Below, one piece after another: positions 600 through 15,288 of a stretch of DNA of 64,000 nt (positions are counted from its first letter, which is position 1; the number at the start of each line of letters is the position of its first letter). Both the position numbers and the translations under genes were made by a program. Source of the stretch: Bacillota bacterium (GTDB taxonomy: Bacteria; Bacillota; Sulfobacillia; JAJZYS01; JAJYTV01). The notes under the pieces are model-generated. The model did no database searches. It was not told the DNA's origin and saw only the letters and a list, made by a program, of their open reading frames with translations. The stretch spans positions 1-64,000 of the forward strand of contig JAJZAT010000017.1 in the NCBI GenBank assembly GCA_021799275.1, written 5' to 3'.

Positions 600-646
600 C
601 TGGAGCTGGTGGTCAGACTCGAACTGACGACCTGCGCATTACGAGT
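600..646. repeat. Left attachment site (attL), tRNA-Thr 3'-half remnant
   Basis: These 47 bp are identical to 15242-15288. They correspond, on the minus strand, to the tRNA-Thr sequence from the anticodon loop to the encoded CCA. Identity stops directly after the anticodon-loop region: the left copy continues with TGTTCTAAC where the tRNA has GCGCTGCTC. Strand exchange in the anticodon loop is usual for tyrosine integrases that use tRNA genes. Confidence 0.92.
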
Positions 647-766
647 TGTTCTAACGAAGTTACTAGAAATGGCCTCATACCGCAAGAAACCCGCTGCTTA
701 TGCGAGTTTCGGCGTTTTGCCGAAACTACTGCCCAGGACTAGTAAAGACCACATTTGACCCCAAAA

Positions 767-786
767 TGTCTGCAGGCGTGTCTGCA
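767..786 (+). repeat. Integrase arm-type site pair, left
   Basis: Two direct copies of TGTCTGCA (767-774 and 779-786) start 12 bp apart. The same pair with the same spacing and orientation occurs at 15176-15195 beside the other attachment site. Duplicated short repeats placed inside both ends of a tyrosine-recombinase element are typical of arm-type sites bound by the integrase N-terminal domain. Confidence 0.65.
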
Positions 787-790
787 AGGG

Positions 791-1291
791 TCACTCTTGG
801 TCTGTCCTAAAATTCGTTTGTGTAAGCGCGTTTGTGCCAGCGCGCATGGCGTCTTCTTTGGCCCTCGCCCTCGCGGTCGCGCGTTCCCTGCGGCGAATCG
901 CTTTCTCCTCTTCCCACTGGCGTTGTTCCTCCACCCATCGGCGCTGGCGGCGAATGTCCAGTTCGCCCAGACGGGCACGCGCCCAAGATGCAGCAGTAGT
1001 TAATTGGCGCCGATGGCCCGGCACTGTCACCCAGTTGTGCCGATCGGCAACGAAGACTAGCCAACTTTCGATGGTTTCTAGTACCGGCATGTCGGACTCG
1101 CCAAGCGTTACGGCGCCCTCTTGAAGCGTGCCCGTCTCTGCTGCCCTGATCGCCTCCAGCACGAACTGGCGCAGGGTTAGACCCCGCGCGTCCAAGACAG
1201 CCTGCAAGCGCAGGTTGTCGGCTTCTGACGGGAGCCGAACGCTTCTGACTGGATTCCGGCGGTCTCGGTCTGGTGCATGATAGTCCGTCAT
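791..1291 (-). CDS. Ribbon-helix-helix-like protein with basic C-terminal tail
   Basis: This is a 166-residue protein. Residues about 13-45 (VRSVRLPSEADN followed by LTLRQFVLEAIRAAE) look like a ribbon-helix-helix DNA-binding fold. The last 60 residues are very rich in Arg, Glu and Ala and probably form one long basic helix. ATG 1291 is preceded by TATACT nine bases upstream with no Shine-Dalgarno sequence, so the message may be leaderless. It is transcribed divergently from the HTH gene at 1388 across a palindromic operator. It lies just inside attL, a place where excision or copy-control regulators are often found. The function is not established; a repressor of the replication operon or an accessory recombination factor are possibilities. 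Confidence 0.6.
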   Translation of the reverse strand: MTDYHAPDRDRRNPVRSVRLPSEADNLRLQAVLDARGLTLRQFVLEAIRAAETGTLQEGAVTLGESDMPVLETIESWLVFVADRHNWVTVPGHRRQLTTAASWARARLGELDIRRQRRWVEEQRQWEEEKAIRRRERATARARAKEDAMRAGTNALTQTNFRTDQE

Positions 1292-1299
1292 GGTCAAGA

Positions 1300-1325
1300 G
1301 TATACCACAAATGCGGGGTATACCC
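1300..1325. promoter_or_regulatory. Palindromic operator between divergent genes
   Basis: The perfect palindrome GGGTATACCC (1316-1325) is paired with an inverted half copy, GTATACC, at 1300-1306. TATACT read on the minus strand and TATACC on the plus strand could both act as -10 boxes. A protein bound here would control both the RHH-like gene (minus) and the HTH-to-replication operon (plus). Confidence 0.5.
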
Positions 1326-1387
1326 ACATGACGGCAGCGTACACGGCTGCACTCGGGCGGATGGATGATGCGTCCGAGGTGATTCTG

Positions 1388-1678
1388 ATGGAACTGGCGC
1401 GGCCTGAGCGGACCCTGCTCTCGGAAGCTGAACTTGCTCGTACCTGGGGCGTCTGTCAGCGCACAGTGTCTCGTCTGCGCGCTGGAGGGCTGCCATATGT
1501 TGCGCTACACGTGCCAGGGCGCGCGCGTCCGCTGATCCGTTACGACTTCGAAGTTGTTCGCACGTGGCTAACGGCTCACAGTCGCGGCGAGGCGGCGACT
1601 TCGGAGGCTCCGCAGGTTGCGCCAACCAAACGCGGGCGTCCGAGGCGGTTGGTCACGAAGGGCGGGCGGCGGGCATGA
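1388..1678 (+). CDS. Helix-turn-helix protein, excisionase/MerR-like
   Basis: This is a 96-residue protein. Residues about 9-50 (LLSEAELARTWGV, then RTVSRLRAGGLP and RPLIRYDFEVV) match the helix-turn-helix plus wing of small excisionase-type or plasmid helix-turn-helix proteins. The C-terminal tail is basic. I chose ATG 1388 because GAGGTGAT at 1376-1383 is an excellent Shine-Dalgarno sequence at good spacing; an in-frame ATG at 1328 would add 20 residues but has no ribosome site. It is the first gene of a tightly overlapping run that continues into the helicase and replication initiator. It may regulate that operon or act as an excision factor. Confidence 0.65.
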   Translation: MELARPERTLLSEAELARTWGVCQRTVSRLRAGGLPYVALHVPGRARPLIRYDFEVVRTWLTAHSRGEAATSEAPQVAPTKRGRPRRLVTKGGRRA

Positions 1679-1923
1679 AACGGCCGCCCAACCTCTTCAG
1701 TCAGGCGGCGCCCCTACAACGCCAGTCTGACATGAGATCCATGACGCTGCAAGCCGTTGCCCTACGACGCCGCATCGGCGCAACGCAGTACCTCATTGAC
1801 GGTATCGCCCGCATCGAACCACCGCATGGCCCCTGTGTGCAGACCTGTCGGCGCGAGTGGACTCGCCTGCAAGCCGGGCGCCGCCGCGCCCTCGCGCGCC
1901 TCGAAGGGCGGCGCCTGCCATGA
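1675..1923 (+). CDS. Small basic protein coupled to the helicase gene
   Basis: This 82-residue, Arg-rich protein has no family I recognise. Its ATG overlaps the stop of the upstream gene (ATGA at 1675-1678), and its own TGA overlaps the ATG of the helicase gene (1920-1923). Translation of all three is therefore coupled. Residues about 27-80 are predicted to be mostly helical, with two Cys near the middle (PCVQTCRREW). Its position directly before a DnaB-like helicase suggests a replication accessory or helicase-loading role, but that is only inference. Confidence 0.55.
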   Translation: MKRPPNLFSQAAPLQRQSDMRSMTLQAVALRRRIGATQYLIDGIARIEPPHGPCVQTCRREWTRLQAGRRRALARLEGRRLP

Positions 1924-3464
1924 GCGCCGCACACGAGGTGCCAGAGGCTGAACGGGCAATCCTCGGCTGCATGCTGATCGAACGCGAAGCCATACCCCGC
2001 GCTATCGCTATCGCGCCACCAGAGGAGTTCAGCAACCCCACATACCGCGCGATTTACAGCGCCGTGTTACGGCTCTTCGAGCGTTCCGAGCCCGTCGAGT
2101 ACGACACGGTGGCGGTTGAGATTGGTGCCGACCGTGAGGAGATCAGTGGCGTCACCTATCTGATCAATCTCGCTCAGGGCGTCGCCACGGCGGCGAACGT
2201 TGGATTCCATGCCAAGAGAGTGCACGAAGCATACCTGCTGCGGCGGATTCGGACGCTGACGGATGTTTCGGCGCAGGCCCAGGATGAAGGCCGGGACGAG
2301 GAGGCACGGCAAGCATTTCAAGAGATCGCTCGCCTGCGCCTAATGCACGAGCACCGGCCCGCGTTCTTTGATGCGGACGAGGCCATTGAACGGATCGTGG
2401 CCGCCCGCGAAGGGCTCCCCACTGCATGGAGCGGGTTGAATGGCTTGGGCGTCTCGTTCGACCCAGGCGCCCTAAACATCGTCGCAGCATCTACATCGTC
2501 CGGCAAGACCACTTTGCAGTTGTGGCAGGTCCTTGATTGGCTCCGCACAACGGATACGGGTTGCATCGTCTTCTGGTCCTCCGAGATGAACCGGGACCAC
2601 CTCTTCGCACGGCTTGTCGGCATGATCGCAGGGACGAGCATGGGAGACGTACTGTCGCAGACGCGGCGCCTTTCGCTGTCGCCTGAAGTCTTCGCTGCCC
2701 TGGAGGAGTTTCGACGGATCGCTTCGCATCGGCTTGTGCTCCTGGACGAGCCAGTTGACGCAACCACCTTCGGCCGGCGCGTGGAGGCCCTTCATGCGGA
2801 AACGGGCGTCCTGGTCGCCTTTGTCGATTACCTTCAGCAGATGCCCCCCGTCGCGGCGAACGACCCTCTGGCGGGCTACTACGCGAAGACCCGCGAACAG
2901 GCGGTCGCCCAGACGGTCGTTATGCTCCGCCAGCTAGCCCAGCGCATCGAGATCCCTGTCATTGCAGCGGCGCAATTGAACCGTGAGGCCGCGAAGGCTG
3001 CTGACTACGTGCCCTCTCTCGCGCACCTGCGCGAATCTGGGCAGATTGAGCAGGAGGCCAGCGTCGTGCTCGCGCTCCGCAATGCGAATATGACCCGACT
3101 TTCTGCGGCCAGCGCAGTCGGCCAGAAGTTGGCTGGTGCGGACGTTTGCTACGCATCCCACAACGACGAGGACCTGCAATCTGCCCGCCTTGGGGCTTTA
3201 GCCGCATGCGATGATGCCTTTCCTGGGCGCACACTGCTTGAGGTGTTCGTCCTGAAGAACCGCGCCAATGGCCGTCCGCAGTGGGTCGCCCCACTGGCAA
3301 TGGACGGCCGTACGGGGCGCATCGAAGATCTTTCATGGCGGTACGGACGTGCGGATACGCCCCAGACGGGCAAGTCTACGCGCGGCAAACGCGACAACGG
3401 CCGCGCCTTGCGTGAGCGCGACGACGATGCGGGTTGGGTGCCCGTACCACAGTCGATGGCATGA
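1920..3464 (+). CDS. DnaB-like replicative helicase of the element
   Basis: This 514-residue protein has the DnaB layout: an N-terminal domain (residues 5-110; EAERAILGCMLIEREAIP) that closely echoes the chromosomal DnaB at 18003-19352, then a RecA-like ATPase. The Walker A motif at about residue 190 reads STSSGKTT where the host has RPSMGKTA. The Walker B-like FVDYLQQM is near 300, and the HLRESGQIEQEASVVLAL block is conserved. ATG 1920 overlaps the preceding stop, and its TGA overlaps the start of the initiator gene. Pairing a hexameric helicase with a RepC-type initiator recalls repA-repC of IncQ plasmids, although this helicase is DnaB-derived. It probably unwinds the element's origin in place of, or in competition with, the host helicase. 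Confidence 0.9.
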   Translation: MSAAHEVPEAERAILGCMLIEREAIPRAIAIAPPEEFSNPTYRAIYSAVLRLFERSEPVEYDTVAVEIGADREEISGVTYLINLAQGVATAANVGFHAKRVHEAYLLRRIRTLTDVSAQAQDEGRDEEARQAFQEIARLRLMHEHRPAFFDADEAIERIVAAREGLPTAWSGLNGLGVSFDPGALNIVAASTSSGKTTLQLWQVLDWLRTTDTGCIVFWSSEMNRDHLFARLVGMIAGTSMGDVLSQTRRLSLSPEVFAALEEFRRIASHRLVLLDEPVDATTFGRRVEALHAETGVLVAFVDYLQQMPPVAANDPLAGYYAKTREQAVAQTVVMLRQLAQRIEIPVIAAAQLNREAAKAADYVPSLAHLRESGQIEQEASVVLALRNANMTRLSAASAVGQKLAGADVCYASHNDEDLQSARLGALAACDDAFPGRTLLEVFVLKNRANGRPQWVAPLAMDGRTGRIEDLSWRYGRADTPQTGKSTRGKRDNGRALRERDDDAGWVPVPQSMA

Positions 3465-4342
3465 CATCGAAGCCGCAGAAGCGCGCGCTGCTCACGAACC
3501 ACGCGCGCCTAGAGCAGACACACGCACTAGCTGGACTGTTCAGTGCCATCCCGCGCGGCGAGAGACAGCGTCGCATCGTCCGGTACTCCCCACCGGGGAC
3601 TCGCGAGATATGGACCTTCGCTGAGTTTTGGAGTCTCGGTGCCGACGATCTGACCGTGCTCCTCACAGTGCTTTCGCTTGTGGCGCAACCGGAGGGGAAA
3701 CGGCTTACCGCCGACAAGGCCACACGAGTTCTGGCATTGGAGGGCGAGGCCAGGCAAGACACCCTTTCCCTTGCGACTACGAGGCGAACGCTCACTCGCG
3801 AAGCGGGATGGGAGTGGTCCGGCAAGCGGGGCCGTCTCCTGATTGAAAGCCTAGAACGCTTGGCTCATGTGACGCTCGATGTGGAGCGCGATGGAATCGT
3901 CATGTCGAGAGGGCAATTGCTCGCGCGGGCTGTTCGGACTGCTCACGATGGACCAATACTGATCGCCATTTCCCCATATCTGGCGCAGGTCATTGACGGT
4001 GGCAGGGCATGGGCGCGCATCAGTCTGGAGGAGCACAGGCAGTTGACAACTGACACTGCCCGTCTCCTTCACGCTTGGCTGTCTTCATGGCTCAGACCGG
4101 GACACCAGGGAAAGGCTTCTGTGACCACACTCTTGCAGCACGTATGGCCGGACGACGGACAGCCAATTCCCGAAGGCACATTGCGTCGCAGACGTCATGA
4201 CATTCGCGCCGCGCTACGAGAAATCAGCTGCCTGCATGGATGGCGTGTCGGCGTGCAGGACACGCGCGGGAGCATCCGCATCCATCGGCCCCGCGATGAG
4301 CGGCAGAGGGCTCCGCACCGACTGCGGCGATGGCAGAAATGA
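3461..4342 (+). CDS. RepC-like (IncQ-type) replication initiator
   Basis: This 293-residue protein is predicted to bind the iterons directly downstream and start plasmid replication. The C-terminal half (about residues 165-265) carries the pattern known from RSF1010 RepC: ISPYLAQVI, then a TARLLHAWLSSWL helix, GKASVTTLLQHVWPD, a basic stretch with RRRRHDIRAAL, and a final CLHGWRV strand. These are two winged-helix modules. ATG 3461 overlaps the helicase stop (ATGA), giving strict coupling; an upstream in-frame ATG at 3434 lies inside the helicase. The order helicase then initiator is the same as repA-repC in IncQ plasmids, but no primase gene of the repB type is visible. Confidence 0.8.
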   Translation: MTSKPQKRALLTNHARLEQTHALAGLFSAIPRGERQRRIVRYSPPGTREIWTFAEFWSLGADDLTVLLTVLSLVAQPEGKRLTADKATRVLALEGEARQDTLSLATTRRTLTREAGWEWSGKRGRLLIESLERLAHVTLDVERDGIVMSRGQLLARAVRTAHDGPILIAISPYLAQVIDGGRAWARISLEEHRQLTTDTARLLHAWLSSWLRPGHQGKASVTTLLQHVWPDDGQPIPEGTLRRRRHDIRAALREISCLHGWRVGVQDTRGSIRIHRPRDERQRAPHRLRRWQK

Positions 4343-4363
4343 CTGTCCAACGCAGAGGCGGGT

Positions 4364-4401
4364 GGGAACTATCGCGAACAAACCCGGGAACTATCGCGAA
4401 C
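4364..4401 (+). repeat. Iterons of the putative origin (oriV)
   Basis: There are two perfect copies of GGGAACTATCGCGAAC (4364-4379 and 4386-4401) with a 22-bp period, starting 21 bp after the initiator stop codon. Two-turn spacing and position next to repC are what is expected of initiator-binding iterons. Two repeats is a low number, and I see no clear third copy. Confidence 0.75.
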
Positions 4402-4465
4402 GCAGTCAATCCCCGAGATCCGCGCGCTGAGCGGCGTAGAAGGTGAAGGCGAGATGCCGTTAACA

Positions 4466-4518
4466 GATTCTCCACAGAGAATCCAAGGGAGGGGCCGTCC
4501 TAGCGGCTCGCCCCTCCC
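4466..4518. other. Two adjacent hairpins in the oriV region
   Basis: The first hairpin has a 7-bp stem GATTCTC/GAGAATC around CACA (4466-4483) and includes TTCTCCACA, one base off a DnaA box. The second has a 9-bp stem GGGAGGGGC/GCCCCTCCC with a 14-base loop (4487-4518). In IncQ plasmids, paired palindromes near the iterons serve as single-strand initiation sites. That role here is inference by analogy. No T-run follows, so simple terminators are less likely. Confidence 0.5.
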
Positions 4519-4681
4519 GGCTGGGCGCCGGAGCCTTACGGCCCGTCGCCAGCCGCCCTCCCCACCGGAACCCGAACAGATCGGTTCATCTGCGATTATC
4601 TGGCTTGCAATAGCTCCTCCCAGCCACTCCATCGCATCGAAACCACCCCTACGAGGCCGAACGGCGGAACGGCGGCGCCAA

Positions 4682-4813
4682 AGGTGGCGACAGCGTAGCA
4701 CCCAAAACGCGGGGGAGTGCAGAGGCGGATACGTAGCGGCGTTACGGCGTAGCGGACTGTCTCCACCCTTGCCCCAACGTGACTACTGGCGCGGTTTTCG
4801 CGCTGTCGCCACC
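4682..4813. repeat. Long-range 13-bp inverted repeat in the non-coding region
   Basis: GGTGGCGACAGCG (4682-4694) is the exact reverse complement of 4801-4813, 106 bp away. No gene lies between them. A 15-bp direct repeat (CTGTCTCCACCCTTG at 4757-4771 and 4854-4868) interlocks with it. This part of the 564-bp gene-free stretch 4343-4906 may be the distal origin, a transfer-like site or a regulatory leader. I cannot choose between these. Confidence 0.5.
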
Positions 4814-4838
4814 CCGCCGATAGCAAGGAGTCTTCCTG

Positions 4839-4916
4839 ATGGGCTTGCGCGACCTGTCTCCACCCTTGGCGACACCCCTGGCGCCATCTCGAAAGGAGCG
4901 ATGGAAATGGCCCTAG
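4839..4916 (+). CDS. 25-codon leader ORF overlapping the next start
   Basis: ATG 4839 is preceded by AAGGAG (4825-4830) at 8-nt spacing. The frame runs 25 codons to TAG at 4914-4916, across the ribosome site and start codon of the following gene. A well-translated short ORF in this position would keep the next ribosome site open or occluded. Translational coupling or attenuation is plausible. The peptide itself is Pro/Leu-rich and unrecognised. Confidence 0.35.
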   Translation: MGLRDLSPPLATPLAPSRKERWKWP

Positions 4917-5956
4917 AGACAAGCGGAAATCCGAAGTTCGAGACCCGTCTTCCCCAAGAGGTCCACGCTGACCTTGGCACCATGGCCGCCGCTGGCATTC
5001 CCGCGCGGGAGATCCTCTCTGCGGTCGCCGACACATGGAAGCGCGCCGGCCGCCCGGCTGACCTCCTGGCCCGCGTACGTACCCTCGCCGACGCAGGGCA
5101 GACGGAAAGCGCCCAGCGCAACGAGACGGAGCGCCTTCGGCAGAGGGCGCGCGAGCTGACGCTACGCGAGAAGGAACTCGCGGCGCGCGAACAGGAAACC
5201 GCCCACCTGCTGGCGGACGCCAAGGCCCGCGTTTTGCGCGCGCAGAACGAGACCGCCGCCGTGGAGGCGGGCTCGCGACTTCGCCGTCAGGTGATCGACG
5301 CGGGCGAGGCCCTGCTGCGTCAGGGTGCGAAGCCACAGGACGTGGCGGCAGTCTTCCGCGCCATCGCTGCTGCGAGTCTCGCACCCGAGGCCGTGGCACA
5401 TGAGATCGAACGGCTTGGCGGGCTCAACAAGGCCGTGGCGGCATGGAGCGAGCACGTCAGGAAGCTGCAAAGCGAGACGGCCCGCCTGCAGGGCGAGGTG
5501 GCCGCCCTACAGGAAGAACGCGCGAAGCTCCTCGGCGCCGTCCGCGATGCCGTCCGCGACGCCGCAGGCGAGGTGCGCCAGGGGCTTGCAGGCATCGATG
5601 CTGCGGCTGGACGTATCGACCGTGCCGCGACACGCGCCGAAACGAAAATGGAACAGGCGGGAAGGCAGGTTGCGGAGTACCTGTTGCGGCTCTCCGACGC
5701 GGACGCATTGGCCCGCGAAACCCTGGCGTCCCTGATCGAGACCGTGGGCCCCGTCGCCCTGGCGGCTCAGCTCCTTGCGCTGCACATTGAGCGAGCGGGC
5801 GACACCGAACTGCCCCGCGAACTGGGAGAGGATCGGCCCTATGCACCGCGCCTCTCTTGGGCAACCGACAAGTTGCGTAAGCTGGCCGCGCAGGTGGCCC
5901 CGAATGTGCTCGCGGTGCCCGAGCAGGGATCGCCCGAAGGGGGCGCGAGCGCATGA
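4907..5956 (+). CDS. Long coiled-coil plasmid protein (KfrA-like)
   Basis: This is a 349-residue protein. A short N-terminal region (residues 10-50, RLPQEVHADLGTMAAAG) looks like a compact helical domain. From about residue 70 to 250 the sequence is almost pure alanine/glutamate/arginine heptads (RARELTLREKELAARE and LQSETARLQGEVAAL), a long coiled coil. ATG 4907 is chosen over ATG 4901 because AAAGGAG (4892-4898) gives 8-nt spacing. Its stop overlaps the next gene. Plasmids such as RK2 carry KfrA, a coiled-coil DNA-binding protein that helps segregation, and the placement between rep and par genes fits that kind of role. Sequence identity to KfrA is not claimed. Confidence 0.6.
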   Translation: MALETSGNPKFETRLPQEVHADLGTMAAAGIPAREILSAVADTWKRAGRPADLLARVRTLADAGQTESAQRNETERLRQRARELTLREKELAAREQETAHLLADAKARVLRAQNETAAVEAGSRLRRQVIDAGEALLRQGAKPQDVAAVFRAIAAASLAPEAVAHEIERLGGLNKAVAAWSEHVRKLQSETARLQGEVAALQEERAKLLGAVRDAVRDAAGEVRQGLAGIDAAAGRIDRAATRAETKMEQAGRQVAEYLLRLSDADALARETLASLIETVGPVALAAQLLALHIERAGDTELPRELGEDRPYAPRLSWATDKLRKLAAQVAPNVLAVPEQGSPEGGASA

Positions 5957-6252
5957 AGCGGGGACTGCTCCTTCGTGCCGGTGACGCGTCCGAGGAGACT
6001 CTTGCAGAGATCCGAGCGCACGCCGAGGCCGGGGGCTTCACGGTAACAGTGCAGGCCCGCGTCGGACGCCTTCCCGTCACCGCCCGCCCTAACTTCGCCG
6101 AACGGCTCGCCGACGCGCTGGAAGAGATGCGCCGCGATAAGCTGTCTCTCCGCGCGACGGCGCGCAAGCTTGGCATCGGCGCCGCTACTCTGCACCGCCT
6201 GCTCCATGCAGAAGAACACTCGCCAGTCGATCCCCGTCCCCACCCACCATGA
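5953..6252 (+). CDS. Small protein with resolvase-type HTH
   Basis: This is a 99-residue protein. Residues about 58-87 (MRRDKLSLRATARKLGIGAATLHRLL) form a helix-turn-helix like that at the C-terminus of serine resolvases. The N-terminal half is too short for a recombinase catalytic domain and lacks the catalytic Ser context. ATG 5953 overlaps the stop of the coiled-coil gene (ATGA), so the two are translationally coupled. It ends 75 bp before the ParM gene, across an inverted repeat that could be its binding site. A DNA-binding partner of the coiled-coil protein or a regulator of the par operon is likely; it could also be a decayed resolvase. Confidence 0.6.
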   Translation: MKRGLLLRAGDASEETLAEIRAHAEAGGFTVTVQARVGRLPVTARPNFAERLADALEEMRRDKLSLRATARKLGIGAATLHRLLHAEEHSPVDPRPHPP

Positions 6253-6263
6253 CGGGCGCGAGC

Positions 6264-6314
6264 GTATGACAACATCGTTTCCAATGCGTTCGCCCCGCAG
6301 AAAAAGTGTCATAC
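6264..6314. promoter_or_regulatory. Candidate parC/operator inverted repeat upstream of parM
   Basis: GTATGACA (6264-6271) and its exact inverse TGTCATAC (6307-6314) flank 35 bp directly before the parM ribosome site AGGAGG. Type II partition systems place the ParR-bound centromere, which is also the operator, at this position. The repeat is only two half-sites, fewer than in classic parC. Confidence 0.45.
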
Positions 6315-6327
6315 AGGAGGACGGAAA

Positions 6328-7299
6328 ATGCTCGTTGCAGCCATCGACCTCGGATTCGGCCGTTGCAAGGGCGCGCTCGGCGAACGGCGCGCGGAGTTTC
6401 CGGCCATCGCGGCCCCCGCACCGACGCTCGACCTGGGAGAATTCGCCACCCGCCGCATCCTCACCGATCCGGACGGCGCACGCTGGCTCGTGGGCGATGA
6501 TGCCACAGGCGAGCAGGGGCGTATCGCATTCTCGGCGGGCAAGGCGGAGCAACCCGCCGAGCGCGCGAAGGCCCTACGCCTTCTGGCAGAGTTGATGCGC
6601 GACGTTCCCGAACTGCCGATCGACCGCGTTATAGCGGGGCTCCCGGTTCACGAACTCGCCGCGCAGAAGGATGCCGTCCGCCGCCTGCTCCTCGGGATAC
6701 ACCGCTTCACCTTCGACGGACGACGGTACACCGTGACGGTCGGTGACGTGCGGGTGATTCCGCAGGGCGCGGGTGCCTTCTACGCGGTGGCGCTTCGCGA
6801 CGGCCGCGCGCTACCGGACGCCCCTGCCGGCCGTGTGGCGGTGCTGGACTTGGGCTACAGAACCCTGAATGTCGTGGGGCTCGACGGCGGGCGCTACCTC
6901 GCTGACCGCAGCGGGACGCTGGACCTCGGCGTATCCCGCATCCACCTGGAGGCGCAGCGCCGCATCCTCGCCCGGCACGGCTTTGCGCCCGACCTTGGCG
7001 ACATGGACGCTATCTGCCGGGCGAAGACGCTCATGCTGGGCGGCAGGTCCATCGACGCGTCGGAGATCGTCTCTGGCGCCGCTCAGGCCGTGGCGGAACG
7101 CATCGCGGAAGAGACACAGGCGTTCCTCGGCGACCCACTCCGGTACACCGCAACGATCCTCGCAGGCGGCGGCGCCCAACTCGTGCGGCCGTGGCTCGAG
7201 CAGGCTTTCCCGGCTGTCATGGTCCCGCCGCAGCCACAGATGGCGAATGCCCTCGGCTATCTCGAATACGGGCTCCTGCTGGCCCGGCAAAGCGCGTGA
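6328..7299 (+). CDS. parM: ParM-like actin ATPase for plasmid segregation
   Basis: This 323-residue protein is of the actin/Hsp70 fold, ParM/Alp type. The phosphate-1 loop is AIDLGFGRCK at the N-terminus, the phosphate-2 loop is VLDLGYRTLNV near residue 172, and the adenosine motif is LAGGGAQLV near 290. Such proteins polymerise with ATP and push plasmid copies apart through ParR bound to parC. AGGAGG stands at 6315-6320, 7 nt before the ATG. A ParR-sized ribbon-helix-helix gene starts 6 bp after the stop, completing a type II partition cassette. Presence of partition genes on an integrated element implies a phase of life as a low-copy circle. Confidence 0.85.
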   Translation: MLVAAIDLGFGRCKGALGERRAEFPAIAAPAPTLDLGEFATRRILTDPDGARWLVGDDATGEQGRIAFSAGKAEQPAERAKALRLLAELMRDVPELPIDRVIAGLPVHELAAQKDAVRRLLLGIHRFTFDGRRYTVTVGDVRVIPQGAGAFYAVALRDGRALPDAPAGRVAVLDLGYRTLNVVGLDGGRYLADRSGTLDLGVSRIHLEAQRRILARHGFAPDLGDMDAICRAKTLMLGGRSIDASEIVSGAAQAVAERIAEETQAFLGDPLRYTATILAGGGAQLVRPWLEQAFPAVMVPPQPQMANALGYLEYGLLLARQSA

Positions 7300-7305: not shown

Positions 7306-7569
7306 ATGCGCGTCAATCTGCGCCTGCATTCGAAGCGAGATGCTGACCTGATCCGCCACCTGTCGCGCCTGCGGGATGGTGCACTGTCGGATGAGATACG
7401 GCGCCTGATCCGGGCCGGACTGAGCGGAGGGGGCACGATGGCGCCCCCCACGCCCTTTCCCTCCCGGCAACCGGCGGCCACCGATTCGCCGAAACCGCCC
7501 TTGCTGCAGGGCATTGCTGAGGACCTGTCGGACATCGAGCGCGCGATTGCTGATGCCGCGTGGGATTGA
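7306..7569 (+). CDS. parR: ParR-like centromere-binding protein
   Basis: This is an 87-residue protein. The N-terminal 40 residues (MRVNLRLHSKRDADLIRHL, ending in SDEIRRLIRAGL) fit a ribbon-helix-helix dimer like plasmid ParR, and the tail is Pro-rich and acidic. It starts 6 bp downstream of parM in the same operon, the usual parM-parR order. It should bind the inverted repeat upstream of parM and cap the ParM filament. ParR proteins are poorly conserved, so the call rests on size, fold and position. Confidence 0.7.
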   Translation: MRVNLRLHSKRDADLIRHLSRLRDGALSDEIRRLIRAGLSGGGTMAPPTPFPSRQPAATDSPKPPLLQGIAEDLSDIERAIADAAWD

Positions 7570-7676: not shown

Positions 7677-8900
7677 ATGCGGAAGCTGCAGGGTCTCTTG
7701 GCTGGTGTCGTACTCGCGGCGAGCTTCGCGATTCCCGGCATCGCCGGGGCGCAGGCAGGACTTACCCATCAGCAGGTGGTGGCGCAGCTTGCGCCCTACC
7801 GCTACGTCTCTTACTGGCATACATCAGACGGTCATAGAGGAACGCTTGGCGCCGCTGAGGGCGTGTCCCCCTCCAACTCCCATCTCTACAGATTCGTCTT
7901 CTGGATCGGCAGTCATCGAGTGCGCGCGTTCACCCTCTACGCAGCGCGTATCACGCGCGCCGCACCCAACGCCGTCACGATCATGACGACGGATGTGGTC
8001 GGGAAGCCGCGCGCATACCTCGTCTTCCGTTGGAATGGCTCGGAGATCGTCCCCTACGCGCTGCCTTGGCAGCGCGCCCTCGGTCCCACGACAAGCAGCA
8101 ACGGAGGCGGTAACAGCAGCCCTGTCAACATCACGCCGAGCCAGCCCGGCTACCTCGGCGTCGAGACCACGGATGCGCCGAGCGACTGGACTGTGCAGGG
8201 TTGCGAGGTGCTGCACGTCTACCCTGGCACACCAGCAGCCATGATGGGCCTGGTTGGATCAGAGGACCGAACGGATCCGGTAGGTGACGTGATCTACTCG
8301 CTAGGCATCAATGGTACTGTGTACTACACACCAAACTGCACGGCGCTGACGCATGCGTTGTCCAAAACGGCACCCGGAGATGCCATACAGATTGACTACT
8401 ACCACCGGGACGTAAGTCTGCTGAGTGCCACTTGGGAAAACCGGATCGGCGTCGCAACCCTCACCACGCAACCCTGTCCGCCTGCGCTCACTGGCGCCAT
8501 TACGTCATCGCTCACGGGCAACCGCATCGACCTGACGGTGAAGGTCGTTGGACCGACTGGGAGTACCTCGCCGCAGACCGTCATTCTGGATACGGGCGGT
8601 GTCCACACTTCTTTCCCGGATGCGGTACTGCGTGGCCTGGGCTTTAGCCCCTACGGAACCACTTCGACGGGCGGTGCAGTATCTGGTGCCTATGAGACAA
8701 CTTACCTTTACCGGATTCCAGCGACGGACTTCCTGGTACTTGACAACGGGCTATACGTCCCGATCGCCACAGGCACTATTACAGTCTGGGGCTTCACCAA
8801 CTCCACAGACAAGGCGTTCGGCCCCGACATCCTCAAACTTGGCGACAGTTTCTCGAATAACGGCTCGTACTGGACGCTCACGCTAGCCTGCCCGCGCTGA
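7677..8900 (+). CDS. Secreted PDZ plus retropepsin-like protein
   Basis: This is a 407-residue protein with an N-terminal signal peptide (residues 1-27, ending AGAQA). Residues about 155-245 resemble a PDZ-like domain (GYLGVETTD, VYPGTPAAMMGL, then GDVIYSLGING). The C-terminal part (about 290-400) has VILDTGGVHTSF, with a D-T-G near 305-307 in the hydrophobic context of retroviral-type aspartic proteases, and FGPDILKLG near 381 that could be the matching C-terminal motif. A role in cleaving or sensing extracellular peptides is inferred. The start is set by the signal peptide; an ATG at 7560 in the same frame would put 39 unlikely residues before it. It is a cargo gene just after parR, with no evident operon partner. 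Confidence 0.6.
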   Translation: MRKLQGLLAGVVLAASFAIPGIAGAQAGLTHQQVVAQLAPYRYVSYWHTSDGHRGTLGAAEGVSPSNSHLYRFVFWIGSHRVRAFTLYAARITRAAPNAVTIMTTDVVGKPRAYLVFRWNGSEIVPYALPWQRALGPTTSSNGGGNSSPVNITPSQPGYLGVETTDAPSDWTVQGCEVLHVYPGTPAAMMGLVGSEDRTDPVGDVIYSLGINGTVYYTPNCTALTHALSKTAPGDAIQIDYYHRDVSLLSATWENRIGVATLTTQPCPPALTGAITSSLTGNRIDLTVKVVGPTGSTSPQTVILDTGGVHTSFPDAVLRGLGFSPYGTTSTGGAVSGAYETTYLYRIPATDFLVLDNGLYVPIATGTITVWGFTNSTDKAFGPDILKLGDSFSNNGSYWTLTLACPR

Positions 8901-9019: not shown

Positions 9020-9544
9020 TCAGGTCTGAACCGACGTCGCTATCTCCTGCCGGGCGGTAACGCTGCTCGGCATTGCGAGTGCGTCCCCTAGCGCAGCCAT
9101 GACCTCTCGGAGCTTCCCGGATTCCTGGTACCCCTTTGGCGCCAGGAGCACATTCTCACCGGACGTAAGCGTCACGTACACTGCTGTGCGACGGGAAGTG
9201 AGCAGAAGAATAATGCCAACTATGGCAATGACGAGGCCAAGTACCAATATGCTATAAGGCATGCCAATGAGATAACTTGCGGGGTAGTCTAAGTAGCGTA
9301 GTGCGCCAAGCGCATCTAGTGCAGCCAGCACAAGGCCGACCCCGAGCAGGAAGCCGCCCCATGCTCGCTGAGTCTCGTTCGTTGTAGTCACAGTTTGAAC
9401 GCTGGAAATGTGCTCAAGCGGCGCAACCGCACAGTTCTGTTGACCTTCGTAGATCACTAGGCGCCTGCTTGTCAGGTACACATTTCGGCTCCAAAGCTGC
9501 CACCGCTGGACCGTTCCCTCGTTCACCTGCAGGTGCAAGTCCAT
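9020..9544 (-). CDS. Membrane protein with PH-like N-terminus
   Basis: This is a 174-residue protein. Residues 1-50 form a short beta-rich stretch (WSRNVYLTSRRLVIYEG, then PLEHISSVQTV) like the bacterial PH-type domains found before membrane segments. Two transmembrane helices follow at about 62-80 (GGFLLGVGLVLAALDAL) and 92-115 (SILVLGLVIAIVGIILLL). The C-terminal 55 residues are cytoplasmic and beta-rich. ATG 9544 has only a weak purine-rich ribosome site and an upstream extension cannot be excluded. It lies downstream of the Xre gene on the same strand and may be co-transcribed. Its function is unknown. Confidence 0.55.
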   Translation of the reverse strand: MDLHLQVNEGTVQRWQLWSRNVYLTSRRLVIYEGQQNCAVAPLEHISSVQTVTTTNETQRAWGGFLLGVGLVLAALDALGALRYLDYPASYLIGMPYSILVLGLVIAIVGIILLLTSRRTAVYVTLTSGENVLLAPKGYQESGKLREVMAALGDALAMPSSVTARQEIATSVQT

Positions 9545-9722
9545 CGGCAGTTCTTCCACGTCATGCCACCTCCGCGCTGTGGATTCCGTTACCGCGCTCC
9601 AGTCTCCTGCCGGTGTGAAGCGATGATGAACCAGCCTACATATGTCCCTGTGGCGGTCACCGTGATAGAGCCACGGCAGATCAGTCAACACACAGGCAGA
9701 GGAAACAGCCCGTCCCAAGAGG

Positions 9723-10073
9723 CTAGGCCGAGGGCTCCGGTGGCCACTCCGCACGGATCGCCGCAACCATCCTGAGCGCGAGACGTAGCTGCGCCGCGTC
9801 ACATGCTGCGAGGAGTGCCACCACCTGCGCGCGCAAATCTGCCTCCTCGCTCTCCTGCGCCGCATCCAGCGCGGCCACCAAAGACGAGATCGGGACCGCA
9901 AGCGCGCTGGCGATGCGCGCCAGGGCCGCGATGCTCGGGACTGCCTTGCCGCCCTCTATCTGCGCGACGTAGGCGCCGCTCACGTCCGCTGCCTCCGCAA
10001 GCCGTTCCTGCGTCATTCCCCGCGCTAGCCGCACCTCACGAACCCGAGTACCAAGCCTTGTCGCATCATCCAT
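9723..10073 (-). CDS. Xre-family transcriptional regulator
   Basis: This is a 116-residue protein. Residues 7-65 are a typical cro/CI helix-turn-helix (VREVRLARGMTQERLAEAA, then SGAYVAQIEGGKAVPSIAALARIASAL). The C-terminal part is an Ala-rich helix of dimerisation type. It is divergent from the flavoprotein gene at 10179. Two tandem palindromes in the 105-bp gap are the obvious operators, so it probably represses itself and the flavoprotein. Confidence 0.85.
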   Translation of the reverse strand: MDDATRLGTRVREVRLARGMTQERLAEAADVSGAYVAQIEGGKAVPSIAALARIASALAVPISSLVAALDAAQESEEADLRAQVVALLAACDAAQLRLALRMVAAIRAEWPPEPSA

Positions 10074-10178: not shown

Positions 10179-11279
10179 ATGGACGCGGATGTAATCATCA
10201 TCGGCTCCGGCCCCGCTGGCGGCATGTCGGCCTGCACGCTGGCGGGCTCCATGCGCGTCCTGCTGATCGAACGCTACAAGCTGCCGCGCGAGAAGCTCTG
10301 CAGTGGTGTCGTCACACCAAAGACGGCCGTCCAACTTGCGGGCGTGATCGACCTGCAAAGTGTCCTGATCGGGGAGAGTCACCGCTTCTGGATGGGACTG
10401 CGCGGGCGCGGCAAGGAGTTCGAGCATGACCCGCCCCTGCTCTTCGCCTCGCGGCCCCGGATGGACCTGGCCCTTGTGGAGGCCGCTGCGGCACGTGGCG
10501 CAGACGTGATCGAGGGCGCTGCGGTCGCCTCCGTGGACCCCGAGGCGGGCACCGTGACACTGCGCGACGGGCGCCGACTGGCGGCCCGCGTCGTGATCGG
10601 CGCGGACGGCGCTGCGGGCGTCGCACGGCGCGCGGTTGACCCTGCGCCTGCCGTTCGCGGCTTTGCGATGGAGGTCCGCATCCCCGATCCGCGCGGCGCG
10701 GGAGACCGCCCCAGCATCGCCGACTTTGGGGTGCCGCACGGATTCCTGTGGGCGTATCCGAAGCGAGACGGCACGCTCGCCATCGGCGGCGGCACCGCGC
10801 ACCGCTCCATGCCGGAACTCCCGGACATCGTGCGCGCCTTCGCGCGCCAGCGGTTCGGCGTCTCTCTGCCCGACCGCATCCCCGGCCACCTGATTCCCTT
10901 CCGCCCCGCGAGGCGCGTCAAGCGCGGCAAGGTGCTTCTCGCGGGAGACGCGGCGGGACTCGTGGACCCCATCATCGGCGAGGGCATTCCGTACGCCCTG
11001 TGGAGTGGTCGGCTTGCCGCAGAGTCTACGATGCGCCACATCTACGCGGGCGAATCGCTTGACCAGTACAACGAGCGTCTGCGCCGAGAGATAGGCGGAT
11101 TCACGCGCTGGCTTCACGTCTTCGGGCGTCTCGCCCCCGTCCTGCCGCTGCCGTTCCTCGCGGCGATGCGCTTCGACGTGACGAATCGCGCCCTGTGGGC
11201 CTACCTGGGCGGCCGCGTTCCTCTCATGCCGACTGGCTGCGTGAACACAAGCGCCCACAGGCGTTCGGTAGCTCTTTGA
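10179..11279 (+). CDS. Geranylgeranyl-reductase-like FAD oxidoreductase
   Basis: This 366-residue flavoprotein has the FAD-binding GxGxxG fold at the N-terminus (VIIIGSGPAGGMSA), the KLPREKLCSG segment common to the geranylgeranyl reductase family, RMDLALVEAA, and the second FAD motif VLLAGDAAGLVDPIIGEGI near residue 255-275. Members reduce isoprenoid double bonds in chlorophyll, archaeal lipid or quinone side chains; the substrate here is unknown. It is unusual cargo for a small plasmid. The promoter is shared with the Xre gene through twin palindromes. It may modify host isoprenoid lipids or quinones, which is inference. Confidence 0.75.
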   Translation: MDADVIIIGSGPAGGMSACTLAGSMRVLLIERYKLPREKLCSGVVTPKTAVQLAGVIDLQSVLIGESHRFWMGLRGRGKEFEHDPPLLFASRPRMDLALVEAAAARGADVIEGAAVASVDPEAGTVTLRDGRRLAARVVIGADGAAGVARRAVDPAPAVRGFAMEVRIPDPRGAGDRPSIADFGVPHGFLWAYPKRDGTLAIGGGTAHRSMPELPDIVRAFARQRFGVSLPDRIPGHLIPFRPARRVKRGKVLLAGDAAGLVDPIIGEGIPYALWSGRLAAESTMRHIYAGESLDQYNERLRREIGGFTRWLHVFGRLAPVLPLPFLAAMRFDVTNRALWAYLGGRVPLMPTGCVNTSAHRRSVAL

Positions 11280-11340: not shown

Positions 11341-12021
11341 TTAGTCCGACGCCAGGGACGACAACCCCGCGAAGCCAAATCGCTTGAGGAGCGGGGCGAA
11401 GTGCTGCTTGAAGAACTCCGCGCTCATGGAGACCTGCACGCCCTGGAAGTTGCAGTCGACGTTGCCTGCCGTGAGGTTCGTCACGACCACCTGCACTTCA
11501 GTCTGTGCAATCGAGTACTGCGAGAAGCTGACGACCTTGGGGCCGGTGAGGGGGACGGCGCTCGTTGCGCTCGGCCCCGCAACCGGGTTGCCGTCCACAA
11601 AGATCTGCACCGTTAGAAGCCCGCTCGCGTCATAGGCGCTTGCGGAGGCTGTAAGATCGCCGATGATCGCTGTGGGGCGGCTGTAGGTGGGGAAGATCTG
11701 CACGACCGTTGCGCCTGCCCCAACCGTGATGATGTAGTCGTTGTCATAGACCGCCAGGTTGCCGGTGTCGCCCGATTCGACGGCGCTGCGCAGGATGTCG
11801 TTGACCGTCAGAGGCAGACGCACCATCGCGACGGGTGCCGGCGCCGTGGTGACGCTAGGGGTTGTCGGGTTGACCGCCCCGATGCTCGCGGCGAGCGCCT
11901 GCTGCCCCGCAGCCATCTGCTCGACTGCTTGGGCGAGGCGGTCCTGTCCTTGCGCGATGCGCTGCAGGAGCGGTACCACACCCGGCACCTGAAACTCTTC
12001 CCAGGGTGTCTGCTTCGACAT
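11341..12021 (-). CDS. Unknown beta-rich protein with helical N-terminus
   Basis: This 226-residue protein is not recognised. GGAGG sits 7 nt before ATG 12021. The first 50 residues are a Gln/Ala-rich amphipathic helix (LLQRIAQGQDRLAQAVEQM), followed by a Pro/Thr linker. Residues about 68-200 alternate short hydrophobic strands (VYDNDYIITVGAG, LTVQIFVDG, TEVQVVVTN) like a beta-sandwich. No signal peptide is present. The layout of trimer-like helix plus beta-sandwich resembles phage baseplate or surface-display proteins, but no other virion genes are present. It is monocistronic on the minus strand. Confidence 0.5.
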   Translation of the reverse strand: MSKQTPWEEFQVPGVVPLLQRIAQGQDRLAQAVEQMAAGQQALAASIGAVNPTTPSVTTAPAPVAMVRLPLTVNDILRSAVESGDTGNLAVYDNDYIITVGAGATVVQIFPTYSRPTAIIGDLTASASAYDASGLLTVQIFVDGNPVAGPSATSAVPLTGPKVVSFSQYSIAQTEVQVVVTNLTAGNVDCNFQGVQVSMSAEFFKQHFAPLLKRFGFAGLSSLASD

Positions 12022-12227
12022 TTCGTAGCCTCCTCGCAACCCATGCTAGGCGAACCCGGCTTGCTGCATTGGCGCTGCCGTGAAGGGCCATCTTCTTTAG
12101 TCTTAGGCAGTTCTCATTGTGTAATATGCCTTGTACGCAGGTGGTATGCTTCGTGCGCCTAATGCGTCGAATGAACTTCCTTGACTCTCACTGTCATTAC
12201 TTCATCATGGCATTGGAGGTGTTCCAT

Positions 12228-12416
12228 ATGGAGAACAGGACTGGCATCATAGCGGATTGGATGGGGGCGATTATCGGACTGCACCCCGATGCGGCTACCT
12301 TGATTGCGCATCTCCTGCCTCGCCTCCTAGAGGAGGTCCATGCCGACCGCGACTTAGCGAGCCTTGCGGTAGTGGCCACTCGGTCCGCTGCGGAGGTCAG
12401 TGAGGCAATCGCCTGA
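12228..12416 (+). CDS. Small helical protein, unknown
   Basis: This 62-residue protein has GGAGG at 12215-12219, 8 nt before ATG 12228. It is mostly helical (LHPDAATLIAHLLPRLLEEV) with an acidic middle. Its family is unknown. It is followed 59 bp later by another small gene with its own ribosome site, so the two may form a short operon. The 206 bp upstream (12022-12227) contain no other gene; they probably hold divergent promoters for this gene and the minus-strand gene. Confidence 0.5.
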   Translation: MENRTGIIADWMGAIIGLHPDAATLIAHLLPRLLEEVHADRDLASLAVVATRSAAEVSEAIA

Positions 12417-12475: not shown

Positions 12476-12682
12476 TTGGACGACGAGACGCAGACGACGC
12501 AGCAACCCGAGGCCCCGACTGTGGAGACCGTCGAGATCGCGGCCGTCGCGGTCGAGCAGGACGAAGTTGGCGAAGTGATCGTCTCGACGGCGGACGGATC
12601 GGCTGTCGCGACCATGAGCCCCGAGGCGTTCGCCAGGTTCACCGCACACCTCGCGAAGCTGCAGACTGGCGCGCAGAAGTAG
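12476..12682 (+). CDS. Small acidic protein, unknown
   Basis: This 68-residue acidic protein has runs of Val, Glu and Thr (TVETVEIAAVAVEQDEVGEV) and a short C-terminal helix (SPEAFARFTAHLAKLQ). AGGAGG (12463-12468) points to TTG 12476 with 7-nt spacing; ATG 12443 in the same frame would place that ribosome site inside the gene. A strong terminator follows. Low complexity and acidity could fit a DNA-mimic or chaperone-like role, but nothing in the sequence shows it. Confidence 0.5.
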   Translation: MDDETQTTQQPEAPTVETVEIAAVAVEQDEVGEVIVSTADGSAVATMSPEAFARFTAHLAKLQTGAQK

Positions 12683-12719: not shown

Positions 12720-12880
12720 CCTGCCTGACCTGTTCCTTTTTCGTTTTGGAACATGCTTTCTCCTTGGACATATGCCAGCATACCCCGCACCTGCGCGAGG
12801 TGCTTCCGCTCGCCCGCGCAGGGCACCTGTGGGAGGTAGGAAAGCAGACTCTGAATGGATTCTGCTTATACCCTACAGGG

Positions 12881-12926
12881 TTGCCAGGGTGGCCCATACA
12901 AGGTATGGTGTACGTACAGGCGTACA
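12881..12926 (+). promoter_or_regulatory. Promoter overlapped by two palindromes
   Basis: TTGCCA (12881-12886) and TATGGT (12904-12909) are spaced by 17 bp. CCATAC-AAG-GTATGG (12894-12908) and TGTACG-6-CGTACA (12909-12926) cover the -10 box and start site. Two more palindromes lie upstream (TGTTCC/GGAACA at 12731-12753 and TATGC-CA-GCATA at 12771-12782). A repressor site for the gene at 12941 is likely. Confidence 0.55.
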
Positions 12927-12940
12927 TCGGAGGCGATGCC

Positions 12941-13540
12941 GTGCTTAAGGACCAGCGGCTCATTGCGCGCCTTACTTCTGGCGAGAAAGCCCTGCTCGTT
13001 GCCCTGCGTCGTCAGGACTACGTAGGCGAGGGCGACCTGCTGGCCACGCTCCTCGTAGCCGAGGCGCGACGGCGGATCGCTGATCGTCGCGCGACGGACG
13101 AGATCCGCCGAGCATTGGCCCACGTGGAACAGGAGCCACCCAAGGCGACGAACCGGCCACCTGCGCTGCCGAGGGAGGTGGCACTGGAGCCGACCGACGA
13201 GTCCGTAGCGAAGCGGCGAGGACGAGCGCGATCAGCGATGGCGCAGCAGGAACCTGCACAGGATACGCCCCCGCAGGAGCAGCGCGCGGAGGGGCGAACG
13301 CTCGACCGTACGGAACATGCGATCCTTGTTAGCGCCGTTGAGCCGAAGGGGCTACCCCTAGCCCGCAAGTCAAGGCGCGTCCTTCAGACGGTGCGCGCCA
13401 TGCGCGACGAGGGATTGCTCACCGTTCGAACCGAAGGCGACGACGAGAGGGCACATGCAACGGAGGCAGGTAGGGCCGCGCTATGGGCGAGCTTCGCCCG
13501 CAAGCGCGATCCCGGAGCGCTGAGGGAGGTAGAGGCATGA
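12941..13540 (+). CDS. Predicted DNA-binding protein with C-terminal winged helix
   Basis: This is a 199-residue protein. Residues about 10-60 are helical (TSGEKALLVALRRQ, LLATLLVAEARRRIAD). A Pro/Gln-rich linker covers about 62-115. Residues 118-190 look like a winged helix of MarR type (RTEHAILVSAV, RVLQTVRAMRDEGLLTV, ATEAGRAALW). GGAGG at 12929-12933 favours GTG 12941; a longer in-frame start at 12746 exists. The stop overlaps the next ATG. It precedes the integrase gene and may regulate it through the palindromic promoter region. Confidence 0.55.
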   Translation: MLKDQRLIARLTSGEKALLVALRRQDYVGEGDLLATLLVAEARRRIADRRATDEIRRALAHVEQEPPKATNRPPALPREVALEPTDESVAKRRGRARSAMAQQEPAQDTPPQEQRAEGRTLDRTEHAILVSAVEPKGLPLARKSRRVLQTVRAMRDEGLLTVRTEGDDERAHATEAGRAALWASFARKRDPGALREVEA

Positions 13541-13962
13541 AGCGGTCGCCAGTTGGGCTTCTGATCGTCGCCGTCCTTTTTGGCATGATGCTCTACTGGT
13601 CTGGCGTCTGGACGTGGCACGCGACACCTTGGGAGACGCATGCAGCCAAGACGGTGCAGCAGACCGTGCGTAAGGCCGCGAAGTCCATCGGTATCAGGGT
13701 CCACGTTCCGCCGAAGCCACCCGGCGTTTCGCCGGCGCCAACGCAGAACACGCCCAACACGACGCAGACGCCTTCGCCTGCCACGCCGAAGGCGACGACA
13801 GAGAGCACGGCGCAGACGCAGAGCCTAGCGACGCTCTACCCAACCGGTAGCGGACAGGCGATCCCAGCACCGACGACCTCGCAGGCAGTGACGAGCGCCT
13901 TCTGTGCACTGGAGCATGTGAGCGCGGCCACCTGCCAGCAGGCGGTAGCGCAGGCGCAGTGA
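13537..13962 (+). CDS. Membrane-anchored Thr/Pro-rich surface protein
   Basis: This is a 141-residue protein with one N-terminal transmembrane segment (residues 5-24, PVGLLIVAVLFGMMLYWSGV). After it comes an extracytoplasmic stretch very rich in Thr, Pro, Ala and Gln, and a short C-terminal part with two Cys (FCALEHV and TCQQAVA) that could form a disulfide. ATG 13537 overlaps the stop of the preceding gene. The integrase follows 15 bp later, so the three genes form one operon. A cell-surface role such as exclusion is possible; no family is recognised. Confidence 0.55.
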   Translation: MKRSPVGLLIVAVLFGMMLYWSGVWTWHATPWETHAAKTVQQTVRKAAKSIGIRVHVPPKPPGVSPAPTQNTPNTTQTPSPATPKATTESTAQTQSLATLYPTGSGQAIPAPTTSQAVTSAFCALEHVSAATCQQAVAQAQ

Positions 13963-13977
13963 GAGGAGGCTAGTCAA

Positions 13978-15153
13978 GTGGCGGTTGTTAGGCGCGGCGA
14001 CGTATGGCAAGTTCAGGTACGCATCGGGAAGGACCCGCGAACAGGAAAGTGGATTCGTAGGAGCGCCACCTGTGACACAAAGGCCGAGGCACAGCGCGTT
14101 GAGCGCCGACTTCTGGCTGAAGCGGAGGCGAACCGCGCTAGCTGGGTGGAGCCGACCAAGTTGACTGTCGAGCAATACCTGATTGAATGGCTAGAGCGGA
14201 AGCGCGCCGAAGGGCGAACATCAAGCACACTGTTCCACTATGGCGACTTGGTAAAGCGCCTGATTGTGCCCGCATTCGGCAAGCTACAGTTGTCCGACCT
14301 TGGCCCCGCAGTCATTCAGCGTTGGCAGGACGGGCTCGCACCGAGCACGGACGCACCGGGCGCCAGCCAAGCTGCGTATGCGCATCGCGTCTTAAGGAGC
14401 GCGCTATCGGATGCCGTGCGGCTGGGACTCCTGCCCCGCAACCCTGCGCAGGCCGCTCGTCCGGCCCGGCGCACGCCGCGCAAGCGGGGCGGGGTATCTA
14501 TCGACCAAGCGCAGGCCCTGTTCGCGGCTACAGAAGCCAGATGGGCGCCTCTATTCCGCTTCTTGTACTACACCGGGCTTCGACCAGGAGAGGCGCTGGC
14601 TCTGCGATGGGGCGACTTGGACATGGAGGCGGGAATCCTCAGTGTCAGTCGAAGCCGCGTTCTCGTAGGCCCTGACATGGTCGAAGGCGCGCCAAAGACT
14701 GCGGCGGGAATCCGGACGTTTGCGTTGCCTGCGCCTGCGCGCGATGCTCTCCGGGCGCAGTGGGCCATTCAGGCGCAGGACCGCCTCGCGGCTGGCCCGG
14801 ACTGGCGCAATGAGGAATGGGTCTTCTCAAGCCGGATTGGCGGAGCATTGGACCTCAATAACGTGAACCGCGCTTATCGCCGCGCACGAAAGGCCGCAGA
14901 CATTCCCGCCGACCTGCCCTTGTACTCCTTGCGTCACGGTGCAGCATCCGTGCTGTTGGGTTCTGGTGTGCCGCTGGGAGTGGCTGCTAAGCTCATGGGT
15001 CATTCGCAGGTCGCCATCTTCGCCGATACCTATGCCAGCTTGCTCCTGGAGGCGAGTCAGGAGGCCGCGCGGCGAGTGGAAGAGTTTGTGGCCGACCGCG
15101 CAGAGAAGACGGGCACGGACTTGCGGCAGGAGCGACCCCGGCGAGTTCGTTGA
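13978..15153 (+). CDS. int: Tyrosine-type site-specific integrase
   Basis: This 391-residue integrase has an N-terminal arm-binding domain (residues 1-60, GDVWQVQVRIGKDPRTGKW), a core-binding SAM-like domain (about 60-150) and a catalytic domain. Catalytic residues lie in YTGLRPGEAL (Arg near 202), LYSLRHG (near 318), LMGHSQ (His near 341) and the nucleophile in FADTYASLL (Tyr near 352). It starts with GTG and has GAGGAGG upstream. It lies 88 bp from the attachment repeat in tRNA-Thr and is the recombinase expected to integrate and excise the element. TGTCTGCA pairs at both ends are its probable arm sites. Confidence 0.95.
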   Translation: MAVVRRGDVWQVQVRIGKDPRTGKWIRRSATCDTKAEAQRVERRLLAEAEANRASWVEPTKLTVEQYLIEWLERKRAEGRTSSTLFHYGDLVKRLIVPAFGKLQLSDLGPAVIQRWQDGLAPSTDAPGASQAAYAHRVLRSALSDAVRLGLLPRNPAQAARPARRTPRKRGGVSIDQAQALFAATEARWAPLFRFLYYTGLRPGEALALRWGDLDMEAGILSVSRSRVLVGPDMVEGAPKTAAGIRTFALPAPARDALRAQWAIQAQDRLAAGPDWRNEEWVFSSRIGGALDLNNVNRAYRRARKAADIPADLPLYSLRHGAASVLLGSGVPLGVAAKLMGHSQVAIFADTYASLLLEASQEAARRVEEFVADRAEKTGTDLRQERPRRVR

Positions 15154-15175
15154 CTGCGCTCGTAGCAGATCCGGA

Positions 15176-15195
15176 TGTCTGCAAACGTGTCTGCA
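15176..15195 (+). repeat. Integrase arm-type site pair, right
   Basis: Two TGTCTGCA copies (15176-15183 and 15188-15195) with a 12-bp period match the left pair in sequence, spacing and orientation. They lie between the integrase stop and the attachment repeat. Confidence 0.65.
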
Positions 15196-15241
15196 AAATG
15201 ATGAGCGCCCCAAGCAGGGCGCCCTGGAATCCTTGGTACGA

Positions 15242-15288
15242 CTGGAGCTGGTGGTCAGACTCGAACTGACGACCTGCGCATTACGAGT
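15242..15288. repeat. Right attachment site (attR) inside tRNA-Thr
   Basis: This copy of the 47-bp repeat restores the 3' half of the functional tRNA-Thr after integration. Confidence 0.92.

Follow-up and report, generated by a model that had tools for sequence, protein, structure and literature searches.

Sequence analysis of a probable integrative plasmid with a RepC-family initiator, a DnaB-type helicase and a ParM-type gene at a tRNA-Thr gene of a Bacillota bacterium

In this study, we analysed a 64,000-nucleotide stretch of DNA (hereafter the window; contig JAJZAT010000017.1 of assembly GCA_021799275.1) from a Bacillota bacterium, and found that the element at positions 600 to 15288 is best read as a helper-dependent integrative plasmid, a reading that we hold with good confidence. 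It is favoured by the attachment (att) repeats at a tRNA-Thr gene, the empty sites in relatives, a sibling element in genome G008, the gene families encoded, the iterons, a related element in genome G121, and a deviant composition (64.3% GC in the element versus 67.1% in the chromosome, and a dinucleotide distance of 64 versus 15-46). A preliminary description made from the sequence alone had proposed an integrative plasmid with its own replicon, partition genes and integrase but without transfer genes, and this proposal holds when set against relatives, namely the empty sites, the sibling and a relaxase-bearing comparator. Its placing of the host in the Bacillota agrees with the name of a relative of the same genus.

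The two 47-bp direct repeats are exact, as had been claimed, and are spaced 14,642 bp apart. No other exact direct repeat in the window is as long, the next longest being 20 bp, and a chance origin was rejected. In G005, from the same genus, and G007, from a sister genus, tRNA-Thr is followed without interruption by a chromosomal flank that holds a terminator-like hairpin, and a G001 contig continues past tRNA-Thr into a flank of the same kind, stopping 50 bp on. The window flanks, when joined across the 47-bp site, align with all three over the tRNA, the TTT conserved ahead of the site, and the region of the hairpin. Because three relatives show the uninterrupted site and the joined flanks rebuild it, sequence comparison identifies the repeats as recombination sites, and the empty tRNA-Thr site anticipated in the preliminary description is present. 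The joined flanks match the empty sites, and the original hairpin therefore appears to have been displaced to the far side of the element, a new one being supplied at 15203-15224. A second att copy was found in G001 (C193) near a transposase-like gene. The paired integrase arm sites reported earlier are also present as putative sites, one inside each end, where 0 are expected by chance. Genes that by eye resemble dnaN, recF and gyrB lie at 34481-39489, ~19-24 kb from the element, and the insertion is thus probably close to the chromosomal replication origin.

The same tRNA-Thr is occupied in other relatives. G008, from another genus of the same family, contains a decayed sibling element (L043) with six genes, an arm site and att in common. 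Shared between them are the genes for the 99-aa helix-turn-helix (HTH) protein, the DUF6232 protein and the secreted protein (46% identity), the C-terminal portion of the coiled-coil gene, the N-terminal portion of the 141-aa gene in inverted orientation, and the last 21 integrase codons (86% identity), along with the arm site and att. No parM is present at this place in L043; where parM would be, 1832-2466 holds a DUF4258 gene next to a small gene of zinc-finger-like character, and this pair is toxin-antitoxin-like, the small neighbour looking like an antitoxin. A different element occupies the same tRNA-Thr in G002, of the same genus (L041, G002:C320, 2936-6638). Its integrase and Cro-type regulator are 32% and 48% identical to those of the window element, and its 377-aa protein is rolling-circle Rep-like by motif, although Pfam does not confirm this. 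The tRNA-Thr site is reused, since both the decayed sibling and the different element are found there.

The initiator-helicase pair of the preliminary description was recovered by family matches (Table 1). The repC gene overlaps the helicase gene by 4 bp, and the encoded helicase is 38% identical to the host chromosomal DnaB (18168-19307). Iterons had been claimed as well; they are present directly after repC, but only as two 16-bp copies. Judged by the RepC family match and the adjacent iterons, the element would thus possess its own replication initiator and origin, the putative oriV being its largest intergenic gap. RepC scans of genome contigs and of viral contigs yielded nothing useful.

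The claimed type II partition cassette stands only in part. ParM is clear, and its match among PDB sequences is pCBH ParM (E=4e-13), whereas the small gene that follows is a ParR candidate by position and N-terminal sequence. The closest ParM relatives (44-47%) are encoded in G006-G009 of a sister genus (L046-L049). These were rejected as sibling elements, being lone chromosomal genes, two of which neighbour respiratory oxidase genes on long contigs.

Scans of the 19 open reading frames (ORFs) of the element with Pfam, PHROGs and NCBIfam, the last of these covering ten proteins, recognised no family of relaxase, coupling, secretion, terminase, portal or capsid proteins. As a positive control, the same Pfam library found a TrwC relaxase (E=4e-75) in the comparable G121 element. 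The relaxase and terminase searches suggested earlier thus found neither family, in agreement with the reported lack of relaxase, coupling protein, capsid and portal genes. Weak matches of the small HTH protein at 1328-1678 to the small-terminase families phrog_57/141 were dismissed as shared HTH motifs. An integrative and conjugative element (ICE) was rejected on the lack of relaxase, coupling protein and type IV secretion genes, an ICE of the actinomycete pSAM2 type on the lack of an FtsK-like TraSA match (Pfam, NCBIfam), and a prophage on the lack of terminase, portal and capsid genes (PHROGs, Pfam). Since no relaxase, coupling protein, secretion or virion genes are recognisable, spread between cells is probably helper-dependent.

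Table 1. Features of the element and its insertion site (window coordinates)
Feature	Position	Strand	Basis or remarks
attL	600..646	.	47 bp; identical to 15242-15288; chromosome side is the tRNA-downstream flank of relatives' empty sites
178-aa protein	791..1327	-	no family match
Left arm-type integrase site (putative)	766..787	+	TGTCTGCA-N4-TGTCTGCA; inside left end
Small HTH protein, excisionase/regulator-like	1328..1678	+	HTH_17 E=7e-5 (below cut-off); phrog_66 excisionase/regulator E=3e-5
82-aa ORF	1675..1923	+	no assigned function
DnaB-type replicative helicase with N-terminal domain	1920..3464	+	PF00772 E=2e-21; PF03796 E=8.5e-35
RepC-family replication initiator	3461..4342	+	PF06504 E=1.5e-34; 33-36% identical to IncQ RepC
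Putative oriV	4343..4900	.	558-bp gap; second repeat pair at 4752, 4849
Two exact 16-bp iterons	4364..4401	+	GGGAACTATCGCGAAC; copies at 4364, 4386; 22-bp spacing
Coiled-coil protein, 351 aa, KfrA-like by appearance	4901..5956	+	coiled-coil models only; L043 homologue
99-aa weak HTH protein	5953..6252	+	L043 homologue
ParM-type actin-like protein	6328..7299	+	PF17989 (ALP_N) E=2.7e-22; phrog_691 partition protein E=1e-44; ParM structures in PDB
Candidate ParR adaptor, 87 aa	7306..7569	+	directly after parM; N-terminal sequence
Secreted protein, PDZ/aspartyl-protease-like by sequence	7677..8900	+	signal-like N-terminus; weak PDZ; L043 homologue
DUF6232 membrane protein	9020..9553	-	L043 homologue
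Cro/CI-type regulator	9723..10073	-	family scan
FAD-dependent geranylgeranyl-reductase family protein	10179..11279	+	TIGR02032 170 bits (cut-off 158.8); L054 homologue
232-aa protein, N-terminal coil and probable beta domain; possible virion-type	11341..12039	-	homologue in phage-like cluster
62-aa ORF	12228..12416	+	no assigned function
68-aa acidic ORF	12476..12682	+	no assigned function
264-aa ORF	12746..13540	+	no assigned function
141-aa protein with N-terminal membrane segment	13537..13962	+	L043 homologue
Tyrosine integrase	13978..15153	+	PF00589 E=2e-20; phrog_1 E=3e-71; nearest homologue 43%, same genus
Right arm-type integrase site (putative)	15175..15196	+	TGTCTGCA-N4-TGTCTGCA; recurs at same place in sibling element
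Terminator-like hairpin	15203..15224	-	just past tRNA-Thr, element-supplied; similar hairpin there in L043
attR	15242..15288	.	47 bp; overlaps 3' end of tRNA-Thr
tRNA-Thr(CGT)	15243..15318	-	insertion target, stays intact; ARAGORN and Rfam
tRNA-Gly(CCC)	15324..15398	-	upstream of tRNA-Thr; promoter-like site 15436-15408

Among the remaining genes, the secreted PDZ-like gene stands out as one that the two siblings have conserved best. PDB sequence searches with the unassigned proteins of the element and a defence-family scan gave nothing useful, and two structure predictions, one of them for the 232-aa protein, had mean predicted local distance difference test scores of 44 and 30, too low for use.

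A helper-dependent integrative plasmid would work as follows. The integrase, which the preliminary description had correctly placed in the tyrosine family, would recombine attL with attR, and so release a circle of 14,642 bp and leave the site restored. RepC would bind the iterons and load the element's own DnaB, so that host primase and polymerase could be recruited, and the N-terminal domain of DnaB may let the element use host primase instead of RepB. ParM and the small downstream protein would segregate the circle, which could reintegrate into tRNA-Thr, an insertion predicted to keep the tRNA intact while moving its chromosomal terminator to the far side and supplying a new one. Spread via a helper might proceed by mobilisation in trans from an unrecognised oriT, by phage packaging or by DNA uptake.

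Several observations weigh against this reading. The element was observed only in its integrated state, the circle and its excision being predicted, and no transfer route was recognised for it. For an origin of the IncQ type, two iterons is a low number. The ParR candidate has no significant family match in Pfam or PHROGs, and no parC was found, there being no repeat array at 6180-6400, upstream of parM, or at 7560-7700, albeit a degenerate or distant parC is possible; the word "complete" used in the preliminary description is thus unproven. In the integrase, Tyr replaces the first His of the HxxR motif (window 14800-15050), and the nearest homologue has the same residue. Finally, the left flank is just 599 bp long and terminates in a repeat common to another contig. 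The genome is a draft of 61 contigs and this contig begins at window base 1; positions 1-130 also form the start of contig C33 of the same genome (99%) and are present in G002 (96%), and this 130-bp repeat probably broke the assembly. A gene fragment in the left flank (129-356) has no relative in 12 related genomes.

Alternatively, the element may be a stranded derivative, in which a RepC-ParM-TrwC integrative mobilisable plasmid has lost the relaxase and now passes on by vertical inheritance, with replication and partition genes that are vestigial or serve only transiently. We regard this as unlikely, though it deserves serious consideration. In the same class, the G121 element combines RepC, ParM and an integrase with a TrwC relaxase; RepC is absent from the 60 other relatives searched and occurs in just four of the 154 genomes of the class, the window genome included; and the G008 sibling is a decayed remnant. 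However, the main genes are all intact open frames with 88% of the element coding, the att and arm sites are intact, and the finding of siblings at a single site in two genera implies that the element has moved in the past.

A further alternative is a phage satellite or phage-plasmid derivative that travels in helper virus particles and retains a virion-type gene. The genes at 10179-11279 and 11341-12039 form a convergent pair that is found again in the same arrangement (46% and 49% identity, respectively) on L054/L059, a 10.75-kb contig (1-10753) of G005, Bacillota bacterium SKS1.bin49, a sister species. This contig encodes a run of beta-rich, coiled-coil and membrane proteins, and is probably viral, since one of its proteins (460 aa) gives a match to a PHROGs tail family (E=7e-39), and seven viral contigs of IMG/VR encode relatives of that protein at 54-64% identity; possibly the contig belongs to an undescribed virus. 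Its phage-like structural cluster also includes a 419-aa candidate capsid protein and others without known family, and its remaining proteins had no match in the IMG/VR viral contigs. The two-gene unit of FAD reductase and coil-and-beta protein shared with this contig is new and keeps a satellite-like link open, and the earlier statement that no virion gene is present, although no such family was found, is not fully secure for the same reason. Nevertheless, a satellite is improbable. No terminase, capsid, portal or known satellite gene was found in the element, and among genes that redirect or decorate helper capsids, as in P4 and phage-inducible chromosomal island satellites, no known family was recognised, one protein being common to the phage-like cluster. 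The shared pair includes a metabolic-type enzyme and may simply be exchanged cargo; the 232-aa protein has no homologue in phage or viral collections, where the scan of its cluster likewise yielded nothing useful, as did a geranylgeranyl-reductase scan of viral contigs; and L054/L059, a short contig of a metagenome-assembled genome, could be misbinned. A combined scenario, where RepC/DnaB replication and ParM segregation maintain the circle in cells while it spreads in the particles of an undescribed virus of the genus, with which it shares the 232-aa virion-type protein, also seems quite improbable. Least credible, and very improbable, is a plain genomic island, able to integrate through its integrase but never replicating in plasmid form, with RepC, DnaB and ParM as relics: only the integrated state was observed and no centromere was found, but the initiator, helicase, iterons and actin gene are intact in a compact layout.

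If the element is a helper-dependent integrative plasmid, it presents an initiator of the IncQ type in unusual company: the helicase is of the DnaB type and able in principle to use host primase, a relaxase-primase is lacking, and the initiator is linked with an integrase and an actin gene for segregation, all in a Bacillota host. For an integrative plasmid, the pairing of a RepC initiator with a dedicated helicase of the DnaB type is new, and the literature compared holds no description of it. The tRNA-Thr site, which is empty or carries a decayed sibling or an unrelated element in relatives, lends itself well to studying how elements spread without visible transfer genes, and the gene pair shared with the phage-like contig makes virus-plasmid exchange directly testable.

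IncQ plasmids carry repBAC with a RepA helicase, a relaxase-primase fusion and iterons at oriV (PMC7557826). Like those of the RSF1010 type, the element has a RepC-family initiator, an adjoining helicase gene and repeats beside repC. Unlike them, it has a helicase with DnaB N- and C-terminal domains, shows no MobA/RepB relaxase-primase match, and has an integrase, ParM and a Bacillota host. Having neither a RepA-type helicase nor MobA/RepB, it is not an IncQ plasmid. The element of G121, from another family of the same class, lies on a contig of chromosome size (3.6 Mb) and resembles the window element in RepC (33%), in ParM (28%) followed by a small gene, and in an integrase homologue (33%) ~20 kb away; it differs in its IncQ RepA-like AAA_25 helicase, its TrwC relaxase, a GC content of 54%, and the lack of a tRNA gene found nearby. 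An integrated conjugative plasmid region has been described in Sulfobacillus thermotolerans (PMC6803676).

SXT/R391 ICEs combine an integrase with plasmid-like replication when excised and a ParM-type srpMRC system (PMC4489591), but they are fully conjugative and replicate from oriT by the relaxase TraI, none of which is found in this element. The integrative plasmids of archaea insert by means of tyrosine recombinases, for the most part into tRNA genes; one of them, pSSVi, is amplified with virus help, but has unrelated replication genes and archaeal hosts (PMC8371274), and the integrase gene of the window element is unsplit. Relaxase-less integrative hitchers form a named class, iOriT, which like this element are integrated and lack their own relaxase and mating apparatus, the class being defined by an oriT (PMC11389934). 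The preliminary description considered the element not to be a textbook ICE, prophage or satellite, and indeed ICE and prophage genes were not found; the combination is unusual, but the element is not a new kind, because integrase, replication and partition functions are already known together in ICEs and in archaeal integrative plasmids.

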